A stretch of 64,000 bases of DNA, taken from assembly GCF_003932855.1 (NCBI RefSeq), contig NZ_RQYZ01000002.1, forward strand, positions 1-64,000, read 5' to 3'. The notes beneath the pieces were generated by a model, which worked only from the letters and a program-made list of their open reading frames with translations, had not been told where the DNA came from and searched no databases. A program made the position numbers and the translations under genes. Shown piece after piece: positions 2,258-64,000 of the stretch (the stretch's first letter is position 1; every line of letters begins with the position of its first letter). This DNA is from Tessaracoccus sp. OH4464_COT-324. Lineage in GTDB: Bacteria; Actinomycetota; Actinomycetes; Propionibacteriales; Propionibacteriaceae.

Positions 2258-3123
2258 GCGCCCCCCGGCTGGTGGTGGTCCACCGCGAGACCCAGCTTGC
2301 CCAGCTGCTCGCCGAACACTCGACGATGGGCGCCGTCGAGTTCTTCCTCGCCAGCCGCGGCCAGAGCGTCACCGACCTCGTCGCCGCCGACGACGCCCAG
2401 CGGCGCGCGCTGGAGCTCGCCACCCGCGCCGTGCCCGCCCAGTGGCGCCTCGCCATCGTGGAGCGCAACCAGCTGTCGCGCTTCCTGTTCGAGCCCGACG
2501 ACCTCGTCGCCGTCATCGGCCAGGACGGGCTGGTGCCCAACGTCAGCAAGTACCTCGACGGCCAGGCCGTCCTGGGCATCAGCCCGCAGCGGCCCGGGCC
2601 CCTGTGCCGCCACACCCCCCACGACCTGACCCGCTTCCTCGACGGTGCGCGGCACCGCGTCGAGGAACGGGCGATGGTCGAAGCCACCAGCGACGACGGC
2701 CAGCGGCTGCGCGCCCTCAACGAGGTCTTCGTCGGCGACCGCGGCCACCAATCCGCCCGCTACGAGATACACGTGGGCGGCGAGCAGGAAACCCAGTCCT
2801 CCTCCGGCCTCATCGTGGGCACCGGCACCGGCTCCTCCGGCTGGCTCGCGTCCCTCTGGCTCCAGACCAGGCCCGGCTTCCAGCTGCCCGCCCCCGACTC
2901 CACCGCGCTCGCCTACTTCGTCCGCGAGGCCTGGCCGTCGCCCAGCACCGGCACCCAGCTCGTCGCCGGGCTGATCGCCGACGACGCGGCCATCAAACTG
3001 GTCACCCGCTCGCCGCTGGTGGTGTTCGGCGACGGCATCGAACGCGACTGCCTCCGCCTCGACTGGGGGCAGCGCCTCACCATCCGCCGCGCCCCCAACT
3101 CCCTGCGGTTACTGCTCCTCTGA
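2254..3123 (+). CDS. NAD kinase-like (diacylglycerol/NAD kinase superfamily) protein
   Basis: A 289-residue protein with the ordered signatures of ATP-NAD kinase: GQDG at 89-92 in place of GGDG, a following SKYLDGQAVLGI stretch, the NE pair at 156-157 (LNEVFV), and GTGTGSS at 189-195 in place of TPTGST. The catalytic-type Asp and the Asn-Glu pair that binds the nicotinamide ribose are kept, so NAD(H) phosphorylation or a related reaction is possible. The first glycine of the GGDG loop is replaced by Gln, and the usual N-terminal region is divergent, so it is probably not the housekeeping NAD kinase. It is translationally coupled to the SPFH gene and divergent from a Nudix regulator, consistent with a specialised NAD-linked unit. 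Confidence 0.65.
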   Translation: MSAPRLVVVHRETQLAQLLAEHSTMGAVEFFLASRGQSVTDLVAADDAQRRALELATRAVPAQWRLAIVERNQLSRFLFEPDDLVAVIGQDGLVPNVSKYLDGQAVLGISPQRPGPLCRHTPHDLTRFLDGARHRVEERAMVEATSDDGQRLRALNEVFVGDRGHQSARYEIHVGGEQETQSSSGLIVGTGTGSSGWLASLWLQTRPGFQLPAPDSTALAYFVREAWPSPSTGTQLVAGLIADDAAIKLVTRSPLVVFGDGIERDCLRLDWGQRLTIRRAPNSLRLLLL

Positions 3124-3140
3124 CCCCAGAGAAAGCCGAC

Positions 3141-3163
3141 GGCGGTCCCACCCGGGGACCGCC
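3141..3163. terminator. Hairpin between convergent genes (bidirectional terminator)
   Basis: GGCGGTCCC (3141-3149) pairs perfectly with GGGACCGCC (3155-3163) across a 5-base loop. It lies between the 3' ends of the NAD-kinase-like gene and aconitase. There is no T-run, which is common in high-GC actinobacteria. Confidence 0.55.
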
Positions 3164-3181
3164 GCCAAGCCCTGCGCCCGA

Positions 3182-5854
<2,673 letters not shown>

Positions 5855-5884
5855 CGCTCTCCTTTAGCGCTGATTACATTCGTG

Positions 5885-5965
5885 GCTCAGTGTAGTGTGA
5901 TTTGCCGCACGGCGCCCCAAAATAAATCGACAGATTTACCTTTCCTAATTCGCTCTGATTAGGCC
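5885..5965 (-). promoter_or_regulatory. Upstream region of acnA with two inverted repeats
   Basis: This is an AT-rich patch in a GC-rich genome. It contains TACACT (5894-5889, - strand) as a likely -10, an AAATC/GATTT inverted repeat with a 4-base spacer near 5926-5939, and CCTAAT (5944-5949) / ATTAGG (5958-5963) with an 8-base spacer. The repeats could be operators for acnA or the end of the upstream methyltransferase message. Confidence 0.3.
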
Positions 5966-6010
5966 TGATGCCTCCTTCCGGCGACGATGGCCCGGCAACC
6001 CCGGGACGGC

Positions 6011-7102
6011 TCAGCCGGGCGCCAGCCGGGCCACGCACTCCACATGATGGGTCTGCGGAAATAGGTCAAAGGCCCTGACCTGAGTGGTCGCATAACCCAG
6101 CTCCGCGAAGTAACCCAGATCGCGCGCGAACGCCGCCGGATCGCAGGCCACATAGCTCACCGCGCGGGGCCGCATCGCCACCACCGCGGCCACCACCTTC
6201 CGGCCCGCTCCCCTGCGCGGCGGATCCAGCACCACCACATCCGTCCGAGCGGGCAGCCCGCTCAGGAAGCGATCGATGTTCGCGGCGACGAAGTGCGCCT
6301 CCGGCACGTTGCGCCGCGCGAACTGGACCGCGCGCCTGCTCAGCTCAACGCCCAGCACGAGCGCACCCTGGCGCGCCAACGCGCCGGCGAACAGCCCGGC
6401 CCCGCAGTACAGATCCACGGCGTTCTCCCCCGCGCGCACCTCCAGCTGGGCCAGCACCGCCTCGGCCAACGTATCCGCCGCCCTCGGATGAATCTGCCAG
6501 AAGCCGTTGGCCGCCAGCCGAAACTCGCGGCCCATCGCCCGCTCCACGACGACGGCCTCCCCCGCCACCAGCCGGCCGTCGGCGAAGACGCTGCGCCCCG
6601 AGGCCGCATCGGTGACGCTCAGATCCCGCTCGACCGGCACGTCGGGCACCGGGCCCGCCGCGATCAGGCACCCCTCCGCGGGCAGCCGCACCACGTCGTG
6701 CGACCGTTTGCCCAGCAGCCCCGGCCCCGGCGAGTAACGCATCCGCGTGCGCCAACCAAAGGTGGGCAGCACCTGCTCGACCACCCCGGACCACTCCAGG
6801 CCGGCGAGCCGAACCAGCTGCTCCGCCACCACCCGCCGCTTCAACTCCAGCTGGAACTCGGCGCTGGCGTGCTGCCAGTCGCAGCCGCCGCACACCTCCG
6901 CCACGGCACACGGCGGCGTGACCCGCTCGGGATGCGGCTCCAACACCTCGCTCACCCGGCCCCGATCAAACCGGCTCCCCCGCTCCGTGATCTCCACCCG
7001 GACCCGCTCCCCCGGCAGCCCGCCGGTAACGAAGGTGACCTTGCCATCGATGCGCGCCACCACGAACCCGCCGTGCGCCACCTCACCGAGCACCGTCTCC
7101 AC
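6011..7102 (-). CDS. TrmA/RumA-family SAM-dependent RNA m5U methyltransferase
   Basis: A 363-residue enzyme that methylates C5 of uridine in rRNA or tRNA. It has an N-terminal TRAM RNA-binding domain (about 1-60), cysteines of a [4Fe-4S] cluster site (CAVAEVCGGCDWQ), a Rossmann methyltransferase core with LYCGAGLFAGALA, and LDPPRRGAG followed by YVACDPAAFARDL, where the Cys is the catalytic nucleophile. Whether the target is 23S rRNA (RlmCD-like) or tRNA cannot be told. The GTG start at 7102 is preferred because GGGAGGG lies 6 bases upstream; a TTG at 7132 is the longest alternative. It is divergent from the TrkA pair. Confidence 0.88.
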   Translation of the reverse strand: METVLGEVAHGGFVVARIDGKVTFVTGGLPGERVRVEITERGSRFDRGRVSEVLEPHPERVTPPCAVAEVCGGCDWQHASAEFQLELKRRVVAEQLVRLAGLEWSGVVEQVLPTFGWRTRMRYSPGPGLLGKRSHDVVRLPAEGCLIAAGPVPDVPVERDLSVTDAASGRSVFADGRLVAGEAVVVERAMGREFRLAANGFWQIHPRAADTLAEAVLAQLEVRAGENAVDLYCGAGLFAGALARQGALVLGVELSRRAVQFARRNVPEAHFVAANIDRFLSGLPARTDVVVLDPPRRGAGRKVVAAVVAMRPRAVSYVACDPAAFARDLGYFAELGYATTQVRAFDLFPQTHHVECVARLAPG

Positions 7103-7151
7103 TTCGACCCCTCCCGTTTTGATACCGTTCAACAGATACTAGGGAGTTTCT

Positions 7152-7814
7152 ATGCACATCGTGATCATGGGCTGCGGCCGCACCGGCGCCATGCTGGCGC
7201 GCGGGCTGGAGGAGCGCGGCCACTCGGTAGGCGTGATCGATACACGCGAGGAGGCCTTCGCCCGCCTCAGCCCGCGCTTCAGGGGCCAAACCGTGCGCGG
7301 CGTGGGCTTCGACCGCCAGGTGCTGGAAGCTGCGGGTATCCGCACCGCGGGCGGCTTCGCGGCCGTGTCCAGCGGCGACAACTCGAACATCCTCGCCGCA
7401 CGAGTGGTCAAAGAAATCTACCGTGTGGAAAACGTGGTGGCCCGCATCTACGACCAAGGCCGGGCGCAGGTGTACGAGCGCCTCGGCATCCCGACGGTGG
7501 CCCCCGTGCGCTGGACCACCGCCATGGTGATGCGCCGCCTACTGCCCGAAGGATCCGAGCCGGTGTGGCGCGACCCCTCCGGGCAGGCGCGCATCCTCCA
7601 GGTTGCCGTGCACCGCGGCTGGGTCAACCGCCGGATCAGCGAGCTGTCCGCGGCGGCCGGATGCGTGATCCCCGTCATCACCCGGCTCGGCACCGGCATC
7701 GTGCCGAACAACCAGACAGTATTCCAAGACGGCGACCTCGTCTTCGCCGCCTGCGAGATCGAGCAGACCTCCAACGTCGAACTCGTGCTGGGCAATCCTC
7801 CGAAGGGACATTGA
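7152..7814 (+). CDS. TrkA-family potassium uptake regulator (first copy, CeoB-like)
   Basis: A 220-residue cytoplasmic regulator of Trk/Ktr-type K+ channels. The N-terminal Rossmann (RCK_N) domain opens with the nucleotide-binding motif GCGRTGAMLARGL, followed by an acidic residue at the end of strand 2 (VIDTREEAF). Residues about 140-215 form the RCK_C ligand-sensing domain. In mycobacteria the equivalent tandem genes are ceoB and ceoC, at the same place beside the OB-fold/DUF3710/dut operon. No TrkH/TrkG membrane subunit is present in the window. AGGGAG upstream supports the ATG. The second copy starts two bases after the stop, so the pair is an operon. Confidence 0.9.
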   Translation: MHIVIMGCGRTGAMLARGLEERGHSVGVIDTREEAFARLSPRFRGQTVRGVGFDRQVLEAAGIRTAGGFAAVSSGDNSNILAARVVKEIYRVENVVARIYDQGRAQVYERLGIPTVAPVRWTTAMVMRRLLPEGSEPVWRDPSGQARILQVAVHRGWVNRRISELSAAAGCVIPVITRLGTGIVPNNQTVFQDGDLVFAACEIEQTSNVELVLGNPPKGH

Positions 7815-7816
7815 GC

Positions 7817-8521
7817 ATGAAGGTGTCGATCGCTGGCGCAGGCCAGGTCGGGCGCTCGATCGCCCGCGAACTCATCGCAAACGGCCACCAGGTGACGCTC
7901 ATCGAGCGCGAGGGCCAAGCCATCAAACAGGACACCGTCCTGGGCGCCACCTGGATTCACGCTGATGCCTGCGAGATGAGCACCCTCGAAGACGCCGGGC
8001 TGGAAAACTTCGACGTGGCCATCGCAGCCACCGGCGACGACAAGGCCAACCTCGTCCACTCGCTGCTGGCAAAGACGGAGTTCGGGGTGCCGCGCACCGT
8101 GTCGCGGGTGAACCACCCGGGCAACGAGTGGCTCTTCGACCGCCAGTGGGGCGTGGACGCGGCCGTGTCGACGCCGCGGCTGATGGCGGCGCTCGTCGAG
8201 GAAGCTGTCGAGGCGGGCAACCTCGTGCGGATCCTGTCATTCAAGGAATCCGACACCCACCTGTCCGAGGTGACCATCTCGTCGGAATCCGGCCTGGTGG
8301 GCCGCGCGATCGGCGAGCTGGACATCCCCGAGGACGTGGCCCCCGTCGCGCTGGTGCGCAAGAACCGCCCGCAGGCGCCACGCATCGACGAGCGCCTGCA
8401 GGTGGGCGACAAGCTATTCTTCCTCACCCCCGATCGCTCAGAGGCGGAGCTAGCCGAACTGTTCCAGCATCAGCCCCCGGAGCAGTCTCAGGTGGGCAGC
8501 ACCGAGAACTCCGGGTTGTAG
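7817..8521 (+). CDS. TrkA-family potassium uptake regulator (second copy, CeoC-like)
   Basis: A 234-residue partner of the preceding gene, with its own RCK_N domain (GAGQVGRSIARELIANGH at 7-24, and LIEREGQAI after strand 2) and a C-terminal RCK_C domain. Tandem TrkA genes normally form a hetero-oligomer gating K+ uptake in response to NAD(H), ATP or cyclic dinucleotides, depending on the species; the ligand here is unknown. The ATG at 7817 gives the correct beta-alpha-beta start. Its 3' end overlaps the convergent OB-fold gene by 34 bp. Confidence 0.9.
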   Translation: MKVSIAGAGQVGRSIARELIANGHQVTLIEREGQAIKQDTVLGATWIHADACEMSTLEDAGLENFDVAIAATGDDKANLVHSLLAKTEFGVPRTVSRVNHPGNEWLFDRQWGVDAAVSTPRLMAALVEEAVEAGNLVRILSFKESDTHLSEVTISSESGLVGRAIGELDIPEDVAPVALVRKNRPQAPRIDERLQVGDKLFFLTPDRSEAELAELFQHQPPEQSQVGSTENSGL

Positions 8522-8826
8522 AGCGCCAGGTCCTCGCCCAGGCGCGCCAGGCGGCCGCGCGCGGTGACGGTGGCCCCCGGATAGAGGCAATCCATCGACT
8601 TGCGGCCCATCCAGATGAGCCGCACACAGCCCGACGGGTCGCTCAGCTCAGCCTCGAACCAGCCGGTGGTCAGGTTGACGCCCGTTGCCGTGATGGTTCC
8701 GCCGACTTCGACGCGCTGCCTGAGAGCACACTCGCCGATCCGGGTGCAGGCCACAGCATCCCGACGCGGTGTGCGCTCGGGCGAGGCGAGGAGCCAACGC
8801 TTCAGCCGGCCCAGTGTCTGGTTCAT
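8488..8826 (-). CDS. OB-fold nucleic-acid-binding protein (Rv2694c-like)
   Basis: A 112-residue protein whose second half reads as an OB-fold: a VGGTITATGVNL strand, then LSDPSGCVRLIWMGR, then PGATVTARGRLA, the pattern of RecG/aaRS-type OB domains. Its position, last in the DUF3093-dut-DUF3710 operon and convergent with trkA, matches Rv2694c of Mycobacterium. The ATG overlaps the DUF3710 stop (ATGA), so translation is coupled. Its role is unknown; nucleic-acid binding is inferred from the fold. The DUF3159 membrane protein found beside it in mycobacteria is absent here. Confidence 0.78.
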   Translation of the reverse strand: MNQTLGRLKRWLLASPERTPRRDAVACTRIGECALRQRVEVGGTITATGVNLTTGWFEAELSDPSGCVRLIWMGRKSMDCLYPGATVTARGRLARLGEDLALYNPEFSVLPT

Positions 8827-9557
8827 GACTTCGCGGCCGCCTCGGGCAGATCTGGCAGCGTGAGCGGGATCACCGAGCCCGCCGCCACGGGGCGCGAGCC
8901 GCGACGCACGACGAGGTTGGCGAAGCATTCGAGCAGCGTCAGCGCAATGTCTTCGTTGTCGGGCTCCATCGCGGCCTTGCCGAACACCACGCCGCGCACG
9001 ATCCACGCCGGGCCCTCCGCCATCCAGGTCCGGGTGACCTGCACCACGTCGCGACCGTCCTCGGTGCGCAGCGGCATCGCGCGCAGCAGCTCGGTGCCGA
9101 ACGGGCCCTTGCGCACCGAGAGCTTCGTGCCGGGCTGGTTCTGGGTGGCCGCGATGATCTCGTTGCGGACCTCGGCGAGATACGAGCTGCGCGAGGGCGC
9201 ACCAAACAGCGAGATCTCCATGCCGGAGTCCTCCGTCGCGACGATCACCGCCTGCGGCACCTGCTGCTGGTTCACCGAGATTTGCATCTTCATGCCCTCG
9301 AAGGGCGTGACCACCAGGGTTCCGAGGTCGACGCGCGTCACGTCGTCGGCGCCCAGATCCACCTCCTCGATGTCGAACGGGCCGTTCTCGCGGTCGAACT
9401 CCTCATCCCATCTGGCCCACTCCTGGCGGGCCTCGGCCAGCGCGCGCTCGGCCTCGCTCGACTCCGGCTGTTCTTCGGCCGCGCTCTCCTCCTCGAAGGA
9501 CTCCAGCTCCTCGGCCTTCGGCTCCTCCGTGACGCGCTTCCTACGTCCAAAAATCAT
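8823..9557 (-). CDS. DUF3710 family protein
   Basis: A 244-residue soluble protein of a family conserved in actinobacteria next to dut (Rv2696c in M. tuberculosis). It opens with a basic patch (FGRRKR) and about 55 strongly acidic residues, then a conserved core with [32 protein letters not shown] and [12 protein letters not shown]. There is no signal peptide or membrane segment. The biochemical role is not known. The start overlaps the dut stop (ATGA), and its own stop overlaps the OB-fold gene start, so three proteins are made from one tightly coupled message. Confidence 0.85.
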
Positions 9558-59887: not shown

Positions 59888-61402
59888 TCACCTGGCAGAT
59901 GCGATCTTCGTCACGTCGAAGGCGAGCGAGGTCTGGTCCTTGGTGACGCCCACGATGTCGGACTGAGTGATGATGATATTGGGCAGCAGGAACAGCCAGT
60001 TGCTGGCCGCATCCTCGGTGAGCACCCGGGCCGCTGCACGCTGCTTCGTGACGAACTCCTCTGCGCTGCCCGCGTCGGCGGACTTCACGAGCTCATCGAA
60101 CTCCGGCTTGACATAGCCCATATAGTTCTCGGCGCGCGAGTACATCTTGAGGTCATAGGGCTCGACGTGGGCGACGATTGTCATGTCGTAGTCGTGTTGG
60201 CTGTAAACGAGGTCCAGCCAACGACTGAACTCCAGTTCCTCGATCTCCACCTTGACACCAACCTCGCTCAGCTGCGACTGGATCGAGCGCGCCGCGGGCG
60301 GCGCATAGGGCAGGGTGGGCACCCGCAGACGGAGCGTAAGCCCTGATTCGTAGCCCGCGGCGGCGAGCAACTCCCGCGCCTTCGTCGGGTCGTGCGGGTA
60401 GACCCCGTTGAGATCCTCGTACCACGGAGCATTCGGCGGCACCATAGAGCCGATCAACTCGCCTTTGCCGGCCCACGCGCTCTCCATCACGAGCTTCCGA
60501 TCAACAGCGAAGTTGAGCGCCTGACGGACCTCGCGCTTGGCGAGTGCCTCGTTCCGGTGGTTGTAGCTGAGCAGCACTTCGCCGTCGGTGACGCCCTCCA
60601 GCACCGTGTACTTGGAGCCGTCGGAGAACTGGCCGACGGCCTGCGGCACGGTCAGGTTGGAGATGATGTCCAACTGACCGGAGAGCATCGCCGTGTTCAT
60701 TGCGTTCGGGTCGGCGTAGTAGCGGAAGTTCACTTCTTGAAAGTGCGGATTGGTGCCCCAGTAGTTGGGGTTGAGCTTCAGGCGAACGTATTCGCCGGGC
60801 TCCCACGCGTCGAACAGATATGGACCCGACCCGGCCGGCTTCTCGTTGAGGGAGTCCTTGTCCACGGCCGGGTTGACGATGATGCCGCCCGCGTCGGCGA
60901 GCGTCAGCAGAAACTGGTTCGACGGCTGCTTCAGTTGAAGCTCGACGGTGTAGTCGCCCTTCGCTCGGACGGCTTTGAGCGGCGCGAAGTTGCCGAGCAC
61001 CTGCTTCTTGGCGTCTCCGTCGAGGATGCGCTGGAAACTGTGCACTACGGCCTGCGCGTTGACCGGGGTGCCGTCGGAGAACTTCGCCGCGCTGTCTAGG
61101 TTGAAGGTGTAGGTGAGCCGATCGTCGGAGATCTGCCAATCGGTGGCGAGCAGCGGTTTCGGAGTACGGTGCTCGTCCAGGCGAACCAGGGTTTCGTAGA
61201 CGTTGAACAGCAGAACGAACGGGGTTCCCGCCCCATCCACCGCAATCATGTCCAGGCCCGCGGGCTCCGCAGTGGCGCCGATCTGCAGGACCTTGTTCTC
61301 CTGAACCGCACCCCCCTCACTTGTACCCGCCGACGAGCAGGACACCGCCAGCAGTGCGCTGACCGCCACGGCGGCAGCTTGAATGACGCGTTTGAACCGC
61401 AT
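59888..61402 (-). CDS. ABC transporter substrate-binding lipoprotein (family 5)
   Basis: A 504-residue lipoprotein with signal peptide and lipobox AVSC (Cys22). Family 5 signatures include LDEHRTPKPLLATDWQ, YTFNLDSAAKFSDGTPVNAQ and REVRQALNFAVDRK. Such proteins bind peptides, nickel chelates or other small ligands; the substrate cannot be read from sequence. GAGGAGAGG is a strong ribosome site. TAGTCT (61445-61440) is a possible -10. The region 61403-61629 upstream holds no gene. It heads the five-gene uptake operon. Confidence 0.93.
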   Translation of the reverse strand: MRFKRVIQAAAVAVSALLAVSCSSAGTSEGGAVQENKVLQIGATAEPAGLDMIAVDGAGTPFVLLFNVYETLVRLDEHRTPKPLLATDWQISDDRLTYTFNLDSAAKFSDGTPVNAQAVVHSFQRILDGDAKKQVLGNFAPLKAVRAKGDYTVELQLKQPSNQFLLTLADAGGIIVNPAVDKDSLNEKPAGSGPYLFDAWEPGEYVRLKLNPNYWGTNPHFQEVNFRYYADPNAMNTAMLSGQLDIISNLTVPQAVGQFSDGSKYTVLEGVTDGEVLLSYNHRNEALAKREVRQALNFAVDRKLVMESAWAGKGELIGSMVPPNAPWYEDLNGVYPHDPTKARELLAAAGYESGLTLRLRVPTLPYAPPAARSIQSQLSEVGVKVEIEELEFSRWLDLVYSQHDYDMTIVAHVEPYDLKMYSRAENYMGYVKPEFDELVKSADAGSAEEFVTKQRAAARVLTEDAASNWLFLLPNIIITQSDIVGVTKDQTSLAFDVTKIASAR

Positions 61403-61629: not shown

Positions 61630-63999
61630 CTAAAGATTGGGGAGTTCTCGGACCTCGGGAAATCGTCTGAAACAGACGACGGAGTCCCTCGGCATCTGCT
61701 TCATCTCCCGCATACACCGCCAGTATTCCTCGGTCTCAGCGCAGTCGCTCCACCACTGGGCGGACTGTGTTCCTGGTCTCAGCCAAGGGGTTTTACCACT
61801 TCCGTCGGGGAGTTCCACCTCTTCGGAAACGTCGTGATTGGCGGTTTTGCTCAGGTCGAGTCTTTCTGCCTCGGGCTGATCGGGGGCGTCTCTGTAGGGG
61901 ATCAACTCGGCGCTCTCATTCTTATAGGCGATATAGGTGGGTTCGAGCACCACGAGGCCGAAACAGTCGAGCGCAGTTCTGAGCGGATACTTGATGAGCC
62001 TCGGGAGCTTGTCCTCCTTGTTGTCGTAGCAGAGGCAGTTGGAAAGCGCCTGGGTGGCCGAGCGGATCGGCGTCGCGGAGATATGGGCCGGCCATGAGCT
62101 GAGATCCAAACATTCTCTGGATCCGACATCGCCCTTCGAGGAGGCCGAAGCCACTTCGTATGTGTGGACCGCCACGCCGGTCGCCTCCCGGAGCGTGACG
62201 GCGATTTGACGGTCGAAAACCTCAAATACGCACCCGCGGATCGAGTCGGCGAGGTACAGCGCCCCATAGTTTTTCTTCTCGCTTGGGTCGTTTCCCTCCT
62301 CAGGCGATTCCCCGGGGTCGAATCTGCCGGGCGGGAACTCGGGCTCACCCGCGAGGGCGCGCTCCGTTAGTGTGCTTCTCCTGAAGTCCGGCAACTTACG
62401 CAGCTTCCACTCGAAGGGCACAGAGGAGGCCCACCAGTTCGGTTTACCGTAGCGCGCGTCCGTCACTCTGTAGAGTTTCCGCCCGGCCTCGGGACCCTCT
62501 TTCCTGTCCCCGTCGGCGACGTTGGACGCCTGCTCGATGTCGAACAGCTTCTTCTTTGCCTGCATCATGCGCCCTGGCGTTGCGTCGTTGGATCGGCGCA
62601 TCAGGGCACGCCCGTCCGCGAACCAGTTGTCCATCCAGAGCCCCTTCTGTCCGAGGCACTCGGTGAAGACCAGTTCTCGCTGACCGAAGGAGCCCAGCGT
62701 GTTGAAATCCCCGATCGCCACGCCGTTAACCACCCACTCGCCCATCTGCGCCAGCATGAACCTGAACCACAGCGCGGCCCGCCAGCCAGAAACCTGCCGC
62801 GACGAGCCAGCCATCGCGTTGGCGATATCCGCCCGCAAAAATGGGTACTCCGGATCCGTCAGGCGTACGTTGGCTTCCTTGCTCGCGTCCGCGTCCACCA
62901 CCTTGCCTTCACGCGATACCCAAACTCCGCCTCTCAAGCAGAAGTCGACGAACTGGAAACTGGGATAGCGTTTGACCCCCTGCCAATCCTCTACCTCGAT
63001 GAGCTTGCCGCTTTCGGCAAGGTTTCTCAGGGCTGAGTGATCGAAGGGAAACCAGCCGCCGTTGGAGCTGAACTCCCATCCCCGCTGAACGACCTGCTCT
63101 GCGGTCAGCAGAACATCGTTCTGCTCGAAAGGACTGAACTCCAGCGACGGCCTCGCTTCTTTAGGATTCGATGGCGATTCATCCCCTCCGGGCTTCGCAG
63201 TTCTCCTCTCTTTGTCGGGGAGCAGCTCGTTGAGGCGACTCGAAATTTCTCGTTCCAACCCACTCATCAGCTTGCCGAGTCGCTCCTTGTGGGAGAGGTA
63301 GGGCGTGTCCCAAGACAATTCGAGCGACATCACCATGAAAGCGCGGGTCAGCGAGTGCCAGACGTCGCCCAGCAGGTCCAGGTAGGTCACCTCGAGGGCG
63401 AGAACGGACTGGCTGCTGTCCACTATGACATCGTGGTCGAAGGGCAGCTGCTCTGGGGGCCAAACCAGCTGTCGGAGCCAGTCATCCCAGACATCGCTGG
63501 TCATGCTCTTAGGGTTTGGCTGGTTTTCTTCTCCGTTCAGGCTGAGAATACGGATTTCCCCCTCCGGCGAAGCCACATCCGCGGCGAAATGGGCGCGCGA
63601 GTTCTCTTCGTAGCGCGAGGTTTGGAGCAGCGGGGAAACGAACGCCAGTAGCGTGTCGAGGGCCAGGACCGCTCTCTTCAGCCGGCGGAAGGCGCCGAAG
63701 TTCCAGGGGAAGCCCCTGTCGGACAGCCAGTCGTGCAGCTGCTCCCACCTGTCAGACAGGTCGTCGAGATCTTTCTTGCTTTTGCCGAAGAGCGGATCCT
63801 TCTTGTTGAAGTACCGGAGCAGGTCTTCGACGTATTCGACTCCCTGTGGCTCCTTGCCCCAGGAAAGGACCGGGCAGGGAAGTCGAAAGTAGGTTTCTCG
63901 CAAGGCTTCGACCGCGCCTGCCAACGCCTGTCGGGCGGCCTCCGCCTCTGCTCCGCCTCTGGGAGCGTCTGCGGCTGTCGGCGCCAGCGCGGCCAGATA
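61630..63999 (-). CDS. Large antitoxin-like / RES-domain fusion protein (5' end outside the window)
   Basis: The frame is open to the right edge; at least 789 residues are seen. Numbered from Leu at 63924: residues 1-260 form a charged helical region I do not recognise. Residues about 268-410 resemble actinobacterial antitoxins: LLTAEQV, a recognition-helix-like ALRNLAESGKLIEV, RYPSFQF, then GWRAALWF and a G-containing NGVAIGDFN. Residues about 483-665 resemble a RES toxin domain: LYRVTDARYG, GRFDPGES, YGALYLADS, FEVFDRQ and LIKYPLR. RES proteins degrade NAD+. The Ser expected near YPxR is Leu648, so activity is uncertain. The stretch looks less GC-rich than its neighbours, suggesting transfer. 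Confidence 0.6.
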   Translation of the reverse strand, partial: YLAALAPTAADAPRGGAEAEAARQALAGAVEALRETYFRLPCPVLSWGKEPQGVEYVEDLLRYFNKKDPLFGKSKKDLDDLSDRWEQLHDWLSDRGFPWNFGAFRRLKRAVLALDTLLAFVSPLLQTSRYEENSRAHFAADVASPEGEIRILSLNGEENQPNPKSMTSDVWDDWLRQLVWPPEQLPFDHDVIVDSSQSVLALEVTYLDLLGDVWHSLTRAFMVMSLELSWDTPYLSHKERLGKLMSGLEREISSRLNELLPDKERRTAKPGGDESPSNPKEARPSLEFSPFEQNDVLLTAEQVVQRGWEFSSNGGWFPFDHSALRNLAESGKLIEVEDWQGVKRYPSFQFVDFCLRGGVWVSREGKVVDADASKEANVRLTDPEYPFLRADIANAMAGSSRQVSGWRAALWFRFMLAQMGEWVVNGVAIGDFNTLGSFGQRELVFTECLGQKGLWMDNWFADGRALMRRSNDATPGRMMQAKKKLFDIEQASNVADGDRKEGPEAGRKLYRVTDARYGKPNWWASSVPFEWKLRKLPDFRRSTLTERALAGEPEFPPGRFDPGESPEEGNDPSEKKNYGALYLADSIRGCVFEVFDRQIAVTLREATGVAVHTYEVASASSKGDVGSRECLDLSSWPAHISATPIRSATQALSNCLCYDNKEDKLPRLIKYPLRTALDCFGLVVLEPTYIAYKNESAELIPYRDAPDQPEAERLDLSKTANHDVSEEVELPDGSGKTPWLRPGTQSAQWWSDCAETEEYWRCMREMKQMPRDSVVCFRRFPEVRELPNL

Positions 64000-64000
64000 A

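Follow-up and report, generated by a model that had tools for sequence, protein, structure and literature searches.

Toxins of the RES family act as NAD+ phosphorylases, and their active site is entered by the C-terminal helix of the antitoxin (PMC11535050). A RES domain with R, R, Y and E positions is common to the type II systems RES-Xre, MbcTA and NatRT and to the protein described here, as is the coding of the cognate antitoxin, or a homologue of it, immediately ahead of the RES part. In those systems the two parts are two genes, whereas here they lie in one chain, to which a helix-rich N-terminus and a conserved component (component A) are added. Actinobacterial RES pairs with antitoxins of the YPxFQF type (among them loci L073, L123, L028 and L030) are the nearest in sequence both to the antitoxin-like module (E 2e-9 to 1e-4) and to the GRFD-type RES domain; they differ in being two small genes without component A. 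Bacterial immunity repeatedly ends in NAD+ depletion, and a 2024 paper described the known NAD-targeting immune systems as exclusively TIR and SIR2 while leaving open the role of RES toxins (PMC11535050). The toxin family of the locus described here is known; its arrangement is a new variant.

We analyzed a window of 64,000 nucleotides (the term refers to this whole stretch of DNA), in which a minus-strand frame remains open up to the right edge. A search for open reading frames (ORFs) on the contig extended this frame to 1509 codons (window coordinates 61630-66159), of which the 789 visible residues are the C-terminal part. The ATG, at contig position 66159 and outside the window, has AGGAGG upstream, a strong ribosome-binding site. 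The first ~660 residues form the separable component A, and the remaining, toxin half is referred to here as component B; its helix-rich region starts near aa ~700, just beyond the window, and lies likewise upstream of the antitoxin module in alignments of the separate B genes (Table 1). The original prediction had counted 260 residues or more in front of the antitoxin-like module and had proposed following the region to the right. About 1,000 residues in fact precede the module, and the extension of the gene to the right adds component A as a fused partner. An orthologue of the 1509-aa ORF is present in Arachnia propionica OH2822, the nearest named relative; the window genome falls in the same genus, which makes the host a mouth-type actinobacterium, an Arachnia species (Propionibacteriaceae). 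We rejected an assembly artefact as the source of the A-B fusion because this orthologue, 43% identical, has the identical junction in a separate assembly. The antitoxin-like module and the RES domain lie in one chain in 6/6 complete B proteins, all of which keep an RR-x-P terminus in alignment.

Table 1. Features of the fused gene and its flanks, with the evidence for each; residue numbers refer to the 1509-aa ORF.
Feature	Position	Strand	Basis
ABC transporter substrate-binding protein (flanking gene, not in the system)	59888..61402	minus	ORF list
Visible part of the ORF, 789 aa + stop	61630..64000	minus	ORF lists, own-genome search
C-terminal tail of B half, about aa 1421-1509, ends ...RDSVVCFRRFPEVRELPNL	61633..61899	minus	Alignment
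RES toxin domain, about aa 1229-1420	61900..62475	minus	Pfam PF08808, alignment with stand-alone RES proteins
Pfam RES core, aa 1265-1392	61984-62367	minus	PF08808
Antitoxin-like module, about aa 1017-1140	62740..63111	minus	hhalign, HMM tests with shuffled controls, reverse profile
Helix-rich N-terminal region of B half, aa ~721-1000 visible	63162..64000	minus	Alignments
tRNA-Met (other flank)	66623-66697		tRNA scan

Searched against the whole protein, PF08808 matched at E 8e-4 and 19.9 bits, which is below the curated cut-off of 23.2 bits, while a six-frame search gave 23.7 bits for this same match, just above it. The own-genome paralogue and two relatives lie above the cut-off (E 9e-6, 7e-7 and 1e-8), and the RES-like signatures first noted in the C-terminus are thereby borne out. 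When the family was aligned with four stand-alone RES proteins, five positions proved invariant (R1231, R1279, D1281, G1299 and E1313) and Y1302 nearly so; no column holding a serine, the S of R-E-S, is common to the B family and these four proteins. RES was the sole match of the whole window protein in Pfam, NCBIfam, PADLOC and PHROGs, and a PDB-sequence search with a profile of six B proteins matched no RES structure. The PADLOC models also gave no match for the paralogues, and a single chance-level match among the relatives of A and B.

The module ahead of the RES domain carries, in order, the motifs LLTAEQV, GVKRYPSFQF and GWRAALWF. Surveying the class for RES genes, we obtained a set of stand-alone antitoxins adjoining RES genes, which share a helix-turn-helix-like stretch, YPxFQF and then a W-containing helix motif. 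In the profile-profile comparison proposed earlier for this middle region, hhalign aligned the three nearest family members with nine stand-alone RES-cognate antitoxins at a score of 39.6 (probability 80%), against a maximum of 20.1 among 200 column-shuffled controls. An HMM of ten antitoxins found 7/7 B proteins at the expected place and ranked them over 1,400/1,400 shuffled decoys. L072 scored best (E 5.5e-9), the window copy reached 0.029 and its orthologue 0.13, compared with 0.55 for the best decoy. The reverse profile, made from the B proteins, retrieved stand-alone antitoxins in genomes G236 (a 202-aa gene, E 2.1e-9) and G588 (a 171-aa gene adjoining a RES gene, E 1.3e-4). These matches in both directions, with their shuffled controls, indicate that the module is a true relative of RES-cognate antitoxins. 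Since the Pfam RES match, hhalign, the antitoxin HMM and the reverse profile agree, we take both signatures and their fusion to be real, as the original prediction had proposed from motifs.

The assignment to the DUF2384/Xre antitoxins found no support in Pfam. No Pfam antitoxin model (Xre/MbcA/ParS, DUF2384) matches the window protein, a difference from the RES-Xre, MbcTA and NatRT systems, and the kinship is instead to the YPxFQF-type antitoxins beside actinobacterial RES genes; even a stand-alone cognate antitoxin scores just E 0.065 (PF23125). In L123 (119-1368, plus strand), the 202-aa gene of G236 is unusually near the window module, with the motifs LTAEQV, YPAFQF and GWELALWF, and the 221-aa ORF that follows it was judged by eye to encode a divergent RES-like protein. 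In the other sampled RES loci with a YPxFQF antitoxin, the antitoxin is a separate gene. One locus considered as a further antitoxin-RES fusion (L023), where a single frame seems to take in the antitoxin and the beginning of RES, was set aside, as it contains ambiguous bases and its RES continues in a different frame.

Components A and B occur together in every complete locus. The halves are fused in two genomes, both Arachnia (the window genome and A. propionica OH2822), and are adjacent separate genes in 5/7 loci. In the second locus of the window genome (L005) the genes are convergent and encode an A of 694 aa and a B of 637 aa; same-strand A-B pairs occur in L051, L052 and L053, from three genomes of a different genus, with gaps of 153, 52 and 125 bp, and in a contig fragment from a third genus (L072) A and B overlap by 41 bp. 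The 97 relatives searched first yielded two positive genomes, the window genome and A. propionica, and an order-wide sample (n=392) yielded five. Samples across the class and phylum held no further A-B system, the class-wide matches being ordinary RES or antitoxin genes, and searches of plasmids, phages and viral contigs returned no relatives, so that they gave no support to an origin on a phage or plasmid. The spread of the A-B system is narrow.

Two of the loci contain broken genes. The B gene of L072 falls into two frames, and in the A. propionica locus (L011, G023:C116) the A-B junction is fused while A is broken up over two frames that overlap. The break in A lies at 6692-6735 of L011, with an overlap of 44 bases and without a long homopolymer; it may be a frameshift, a sequencing error or a programmed event. 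These breaks, with the low RES score of the window copy, would fit a decaying or inactive locus in which the fused gene has no present function. We consider such decay highly improbable, given that the window ORF is unbroken over 1509 codons behind a strong ribosome-binding site, that its identity to the orthologue is 40-42% across both halves, and that the toxin positions are conserved.

Component A had no match in Pfam (PF00156 included), NCBIfam, PADLOC or PHROG. It has in common with the type I phosphoribosyltransferases (PRTases, PF00156) a DD-x4-G loop resembling the PRPP-binding motif, DD-x-x-x-[TS]-G. This loop is canonical in three A relatives (DDTKVTG in L052, DDTCISG in L053 and DDVEITG in L072) and degenerate in the window copy (DDLSRRG) as well as in L005 and L051; the degenerate loop, together with the missing Pfam match, sets A apart from that family. 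Against 17 bona fide PRTases, the A profile aligned at the PRPP-type loop with a score of 27.9 (null maximum 15.5) and an hhalign probability of 15%. PRTases are among the top PDB entries for the A profile, a purine PRTase being first at E 0.077, which is not significant. Foldseek with the A structure model (pLDDT 65, pTM 0.73) likewise gave no significant match, the highest listed probability being 0.60, to a PRTase. From sequence, component A appears distantly PRTase-like and no more, and the link is weak.

A weak match to the A profile in the phylum sample (G364/L013) sits among unrelated genes and was dismissed as chance. In another locus (L071, G668:C16:68001-84000), a distant A relative of 666 aa is followed, at 2819-8927 on the minus strand, by a 653-aa protein and a KAP-family NTPase gene. 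The 653-aa protein has only a borderline match to the RES profile (E 0.029, best decoy 0.089), and the locus may be a conflict system akin to this one in which A has another partner. With an unknown gene and a KAP NTPase gene next to this distant relative, A may be a module able to act with more than one partner.

A PRTase-like protein is also found in a known kind of defense system. Some type III retrons pair a PRTase-like protein with a winged-helix protein, and a RES domain is, as far as we are aware, not part of them. What recalls component A is the PRTase-like effector of type III retrons, which is part of a toxic defense module (PMC12548924). They differ from the A-B loci in their reverse transcriptase: a search with RVT_1 in five genomes found none beside the loci, and its matches in two genomes lay on other contigs. 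PADLOC gave no match either. We rejected membership in the type III retrons because no reverse transcriptase adjoins the loci. The two Arachnia genomes that carry the fusion do each have one reverse transcriptase, encoded on another contig (G000:C113:61031-61630 and G023:C104:36038-36649), the open frames being 627 and 721 aa long.

The reading that we favor, and to which we give an even chance, is a two-component NAD+-targeting toxin system in which B is a self-restrained RES effector and A its regulator or trigger, the two being fused in one polypeptide. Component B would carry in its own chain the module that ordinary RES pairs encode as a separate antitoxin, and this module would serve to restrain the RES domain in cis or keep it inactive. 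Component A would then free the RES domain, which, by analogy with the RES family, would break down NAD+ and stop growth. Of the N-terminal sensor originally envisaged, the large extra component stands, but it is a separable conserved protein, adjacent rather than fused in most loci, and any sensing by A is an inference. Counting against this reading are the near-threshold Pfam score of the window copy, the serine of R-E-S for which no shared column was seen, the weak PRTase link of A and its lack of database matches, the single case of a neighboring defense system, and the narrow spread with no phage, plasmid or viral relatives among those searched. The AlphaFold model of component B that was to show inhibition in cis is uninformative on that point, its pLDDT of 42 being too poor to read the geometry.

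Alternatively, A could be the real inhibitor, a new antitoxin, while the module in B has lost inhibition and now serves as a DNA-binding autoregulator or scaffold; the fusion would then merely tie the new antitoxin to its own toxin. That A goes with B wherever the locus is complete, and overlaps it or is fused to it in several loci, would suit such an arrangement, as would the divergence of the module in the window copy (E 0.029). A fold search with the B model also gave a weak winged-helix (MerR/BldC-like) resemblance in the modeled part of the module, a hint only, which may point to a DNA-binding domain. Against these stands the persistence of the P-x-FQF and GW signatures in B proteins just 21-41% identical to the window copy, which suggests that the function of the module is retained. 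In L005, moreover, A and B are convergent and not co-transcribed, as antitoxins usually are with their toxins. We regard A as the inhibitor as unlikely, and return to the reading of B as a self-restrained effector regulated by A.

The surroundings of the loci bear on what such a system might be for. In L052 (G838:C103, 272-7847, minus strand), the A-B pair lies directly downstream of the DISARM genes drmB and drmC, identified by PADLOC at E 6e-74 and 2e-92. Because the contig stops shortly past drmB, the remaining DISARM operon falls outside the visible sequence. This is the only pair that adjoins a known defense system; the other loci are single among core genes. The A and B genes have a lower GC content than the whole locus in 6/6 complete loci tested, for example 60.7% against 65.5% in the window and 52.9% against 63.2% in L011. 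Between Arachnia genomes, the interval from 61402 to contig position 66697, bounded by the ABC transporter gene and the tRNA-Met gene, varies: where the window genome has the toxin gene, G001 has a sigma factor-like gene and others, and G003 has regulator and reductase genes.

An ordinary RES-type stress or growth-arrest module, with a role in dormancy, persistence or genomic maintenance rather than defense, would be compatible with the mechanism that we favor and concerns its purpose. Characterized RES systems function in persistence and stress, most of the present loci lie among core genes without defense neighbors, and no RES system had been implicated in immunity as of 2024 (PMC11535050). 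The DISARM adjacency in one locus and the KAP NTPase beside an A relative speak against a stress module, and the patchy distribution, low GC and variable insertion site are more typical of conflict genes; on balance we think it rather unlikely that stress or growth arrest is the purpose. A defense role of the A-B locus is plausible, and because relatives carry the halves as neighbors, once by a phage-defense system, the locus looks like an undescribed, possibly defensive RES variant. Trigger-released, NAD-depleting abortive infection, as first proposed, is plausible only. The fullest version of this proposal, a new anti-phage abortive-infection system in which A is a PRTase-like sensor and B, under its control, a self-inhibited RES effector that destroys NAD+ on infection, we put forward tentatively, with some doubt.

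Among the open-licence papers searched, we found none that describes a RES toxin in one chain with its antitoxin, or one that has a PRTase-like protein as its partner, and thus no counter-example to the original statement that no system with this layout had been described. A RES effector with a built-in antitoxin and a conserved partner, once by DISARM, is a concrete and testable candidate. The loci form a natural series that starts with antitoxin and toxin as two genes, passes through a fused B with a separate A and ends in a single A-B chain; this series opens the intramolecular control of a toxin to experiment. If the anti-phage abortive-infection reading is true, the locus would encode a kind of RES-domain immune effector that the papers found do not report, with its antitoxin inside the effector, and in Arachnia the sensor and effector would be joined in one 1509-residue chain.
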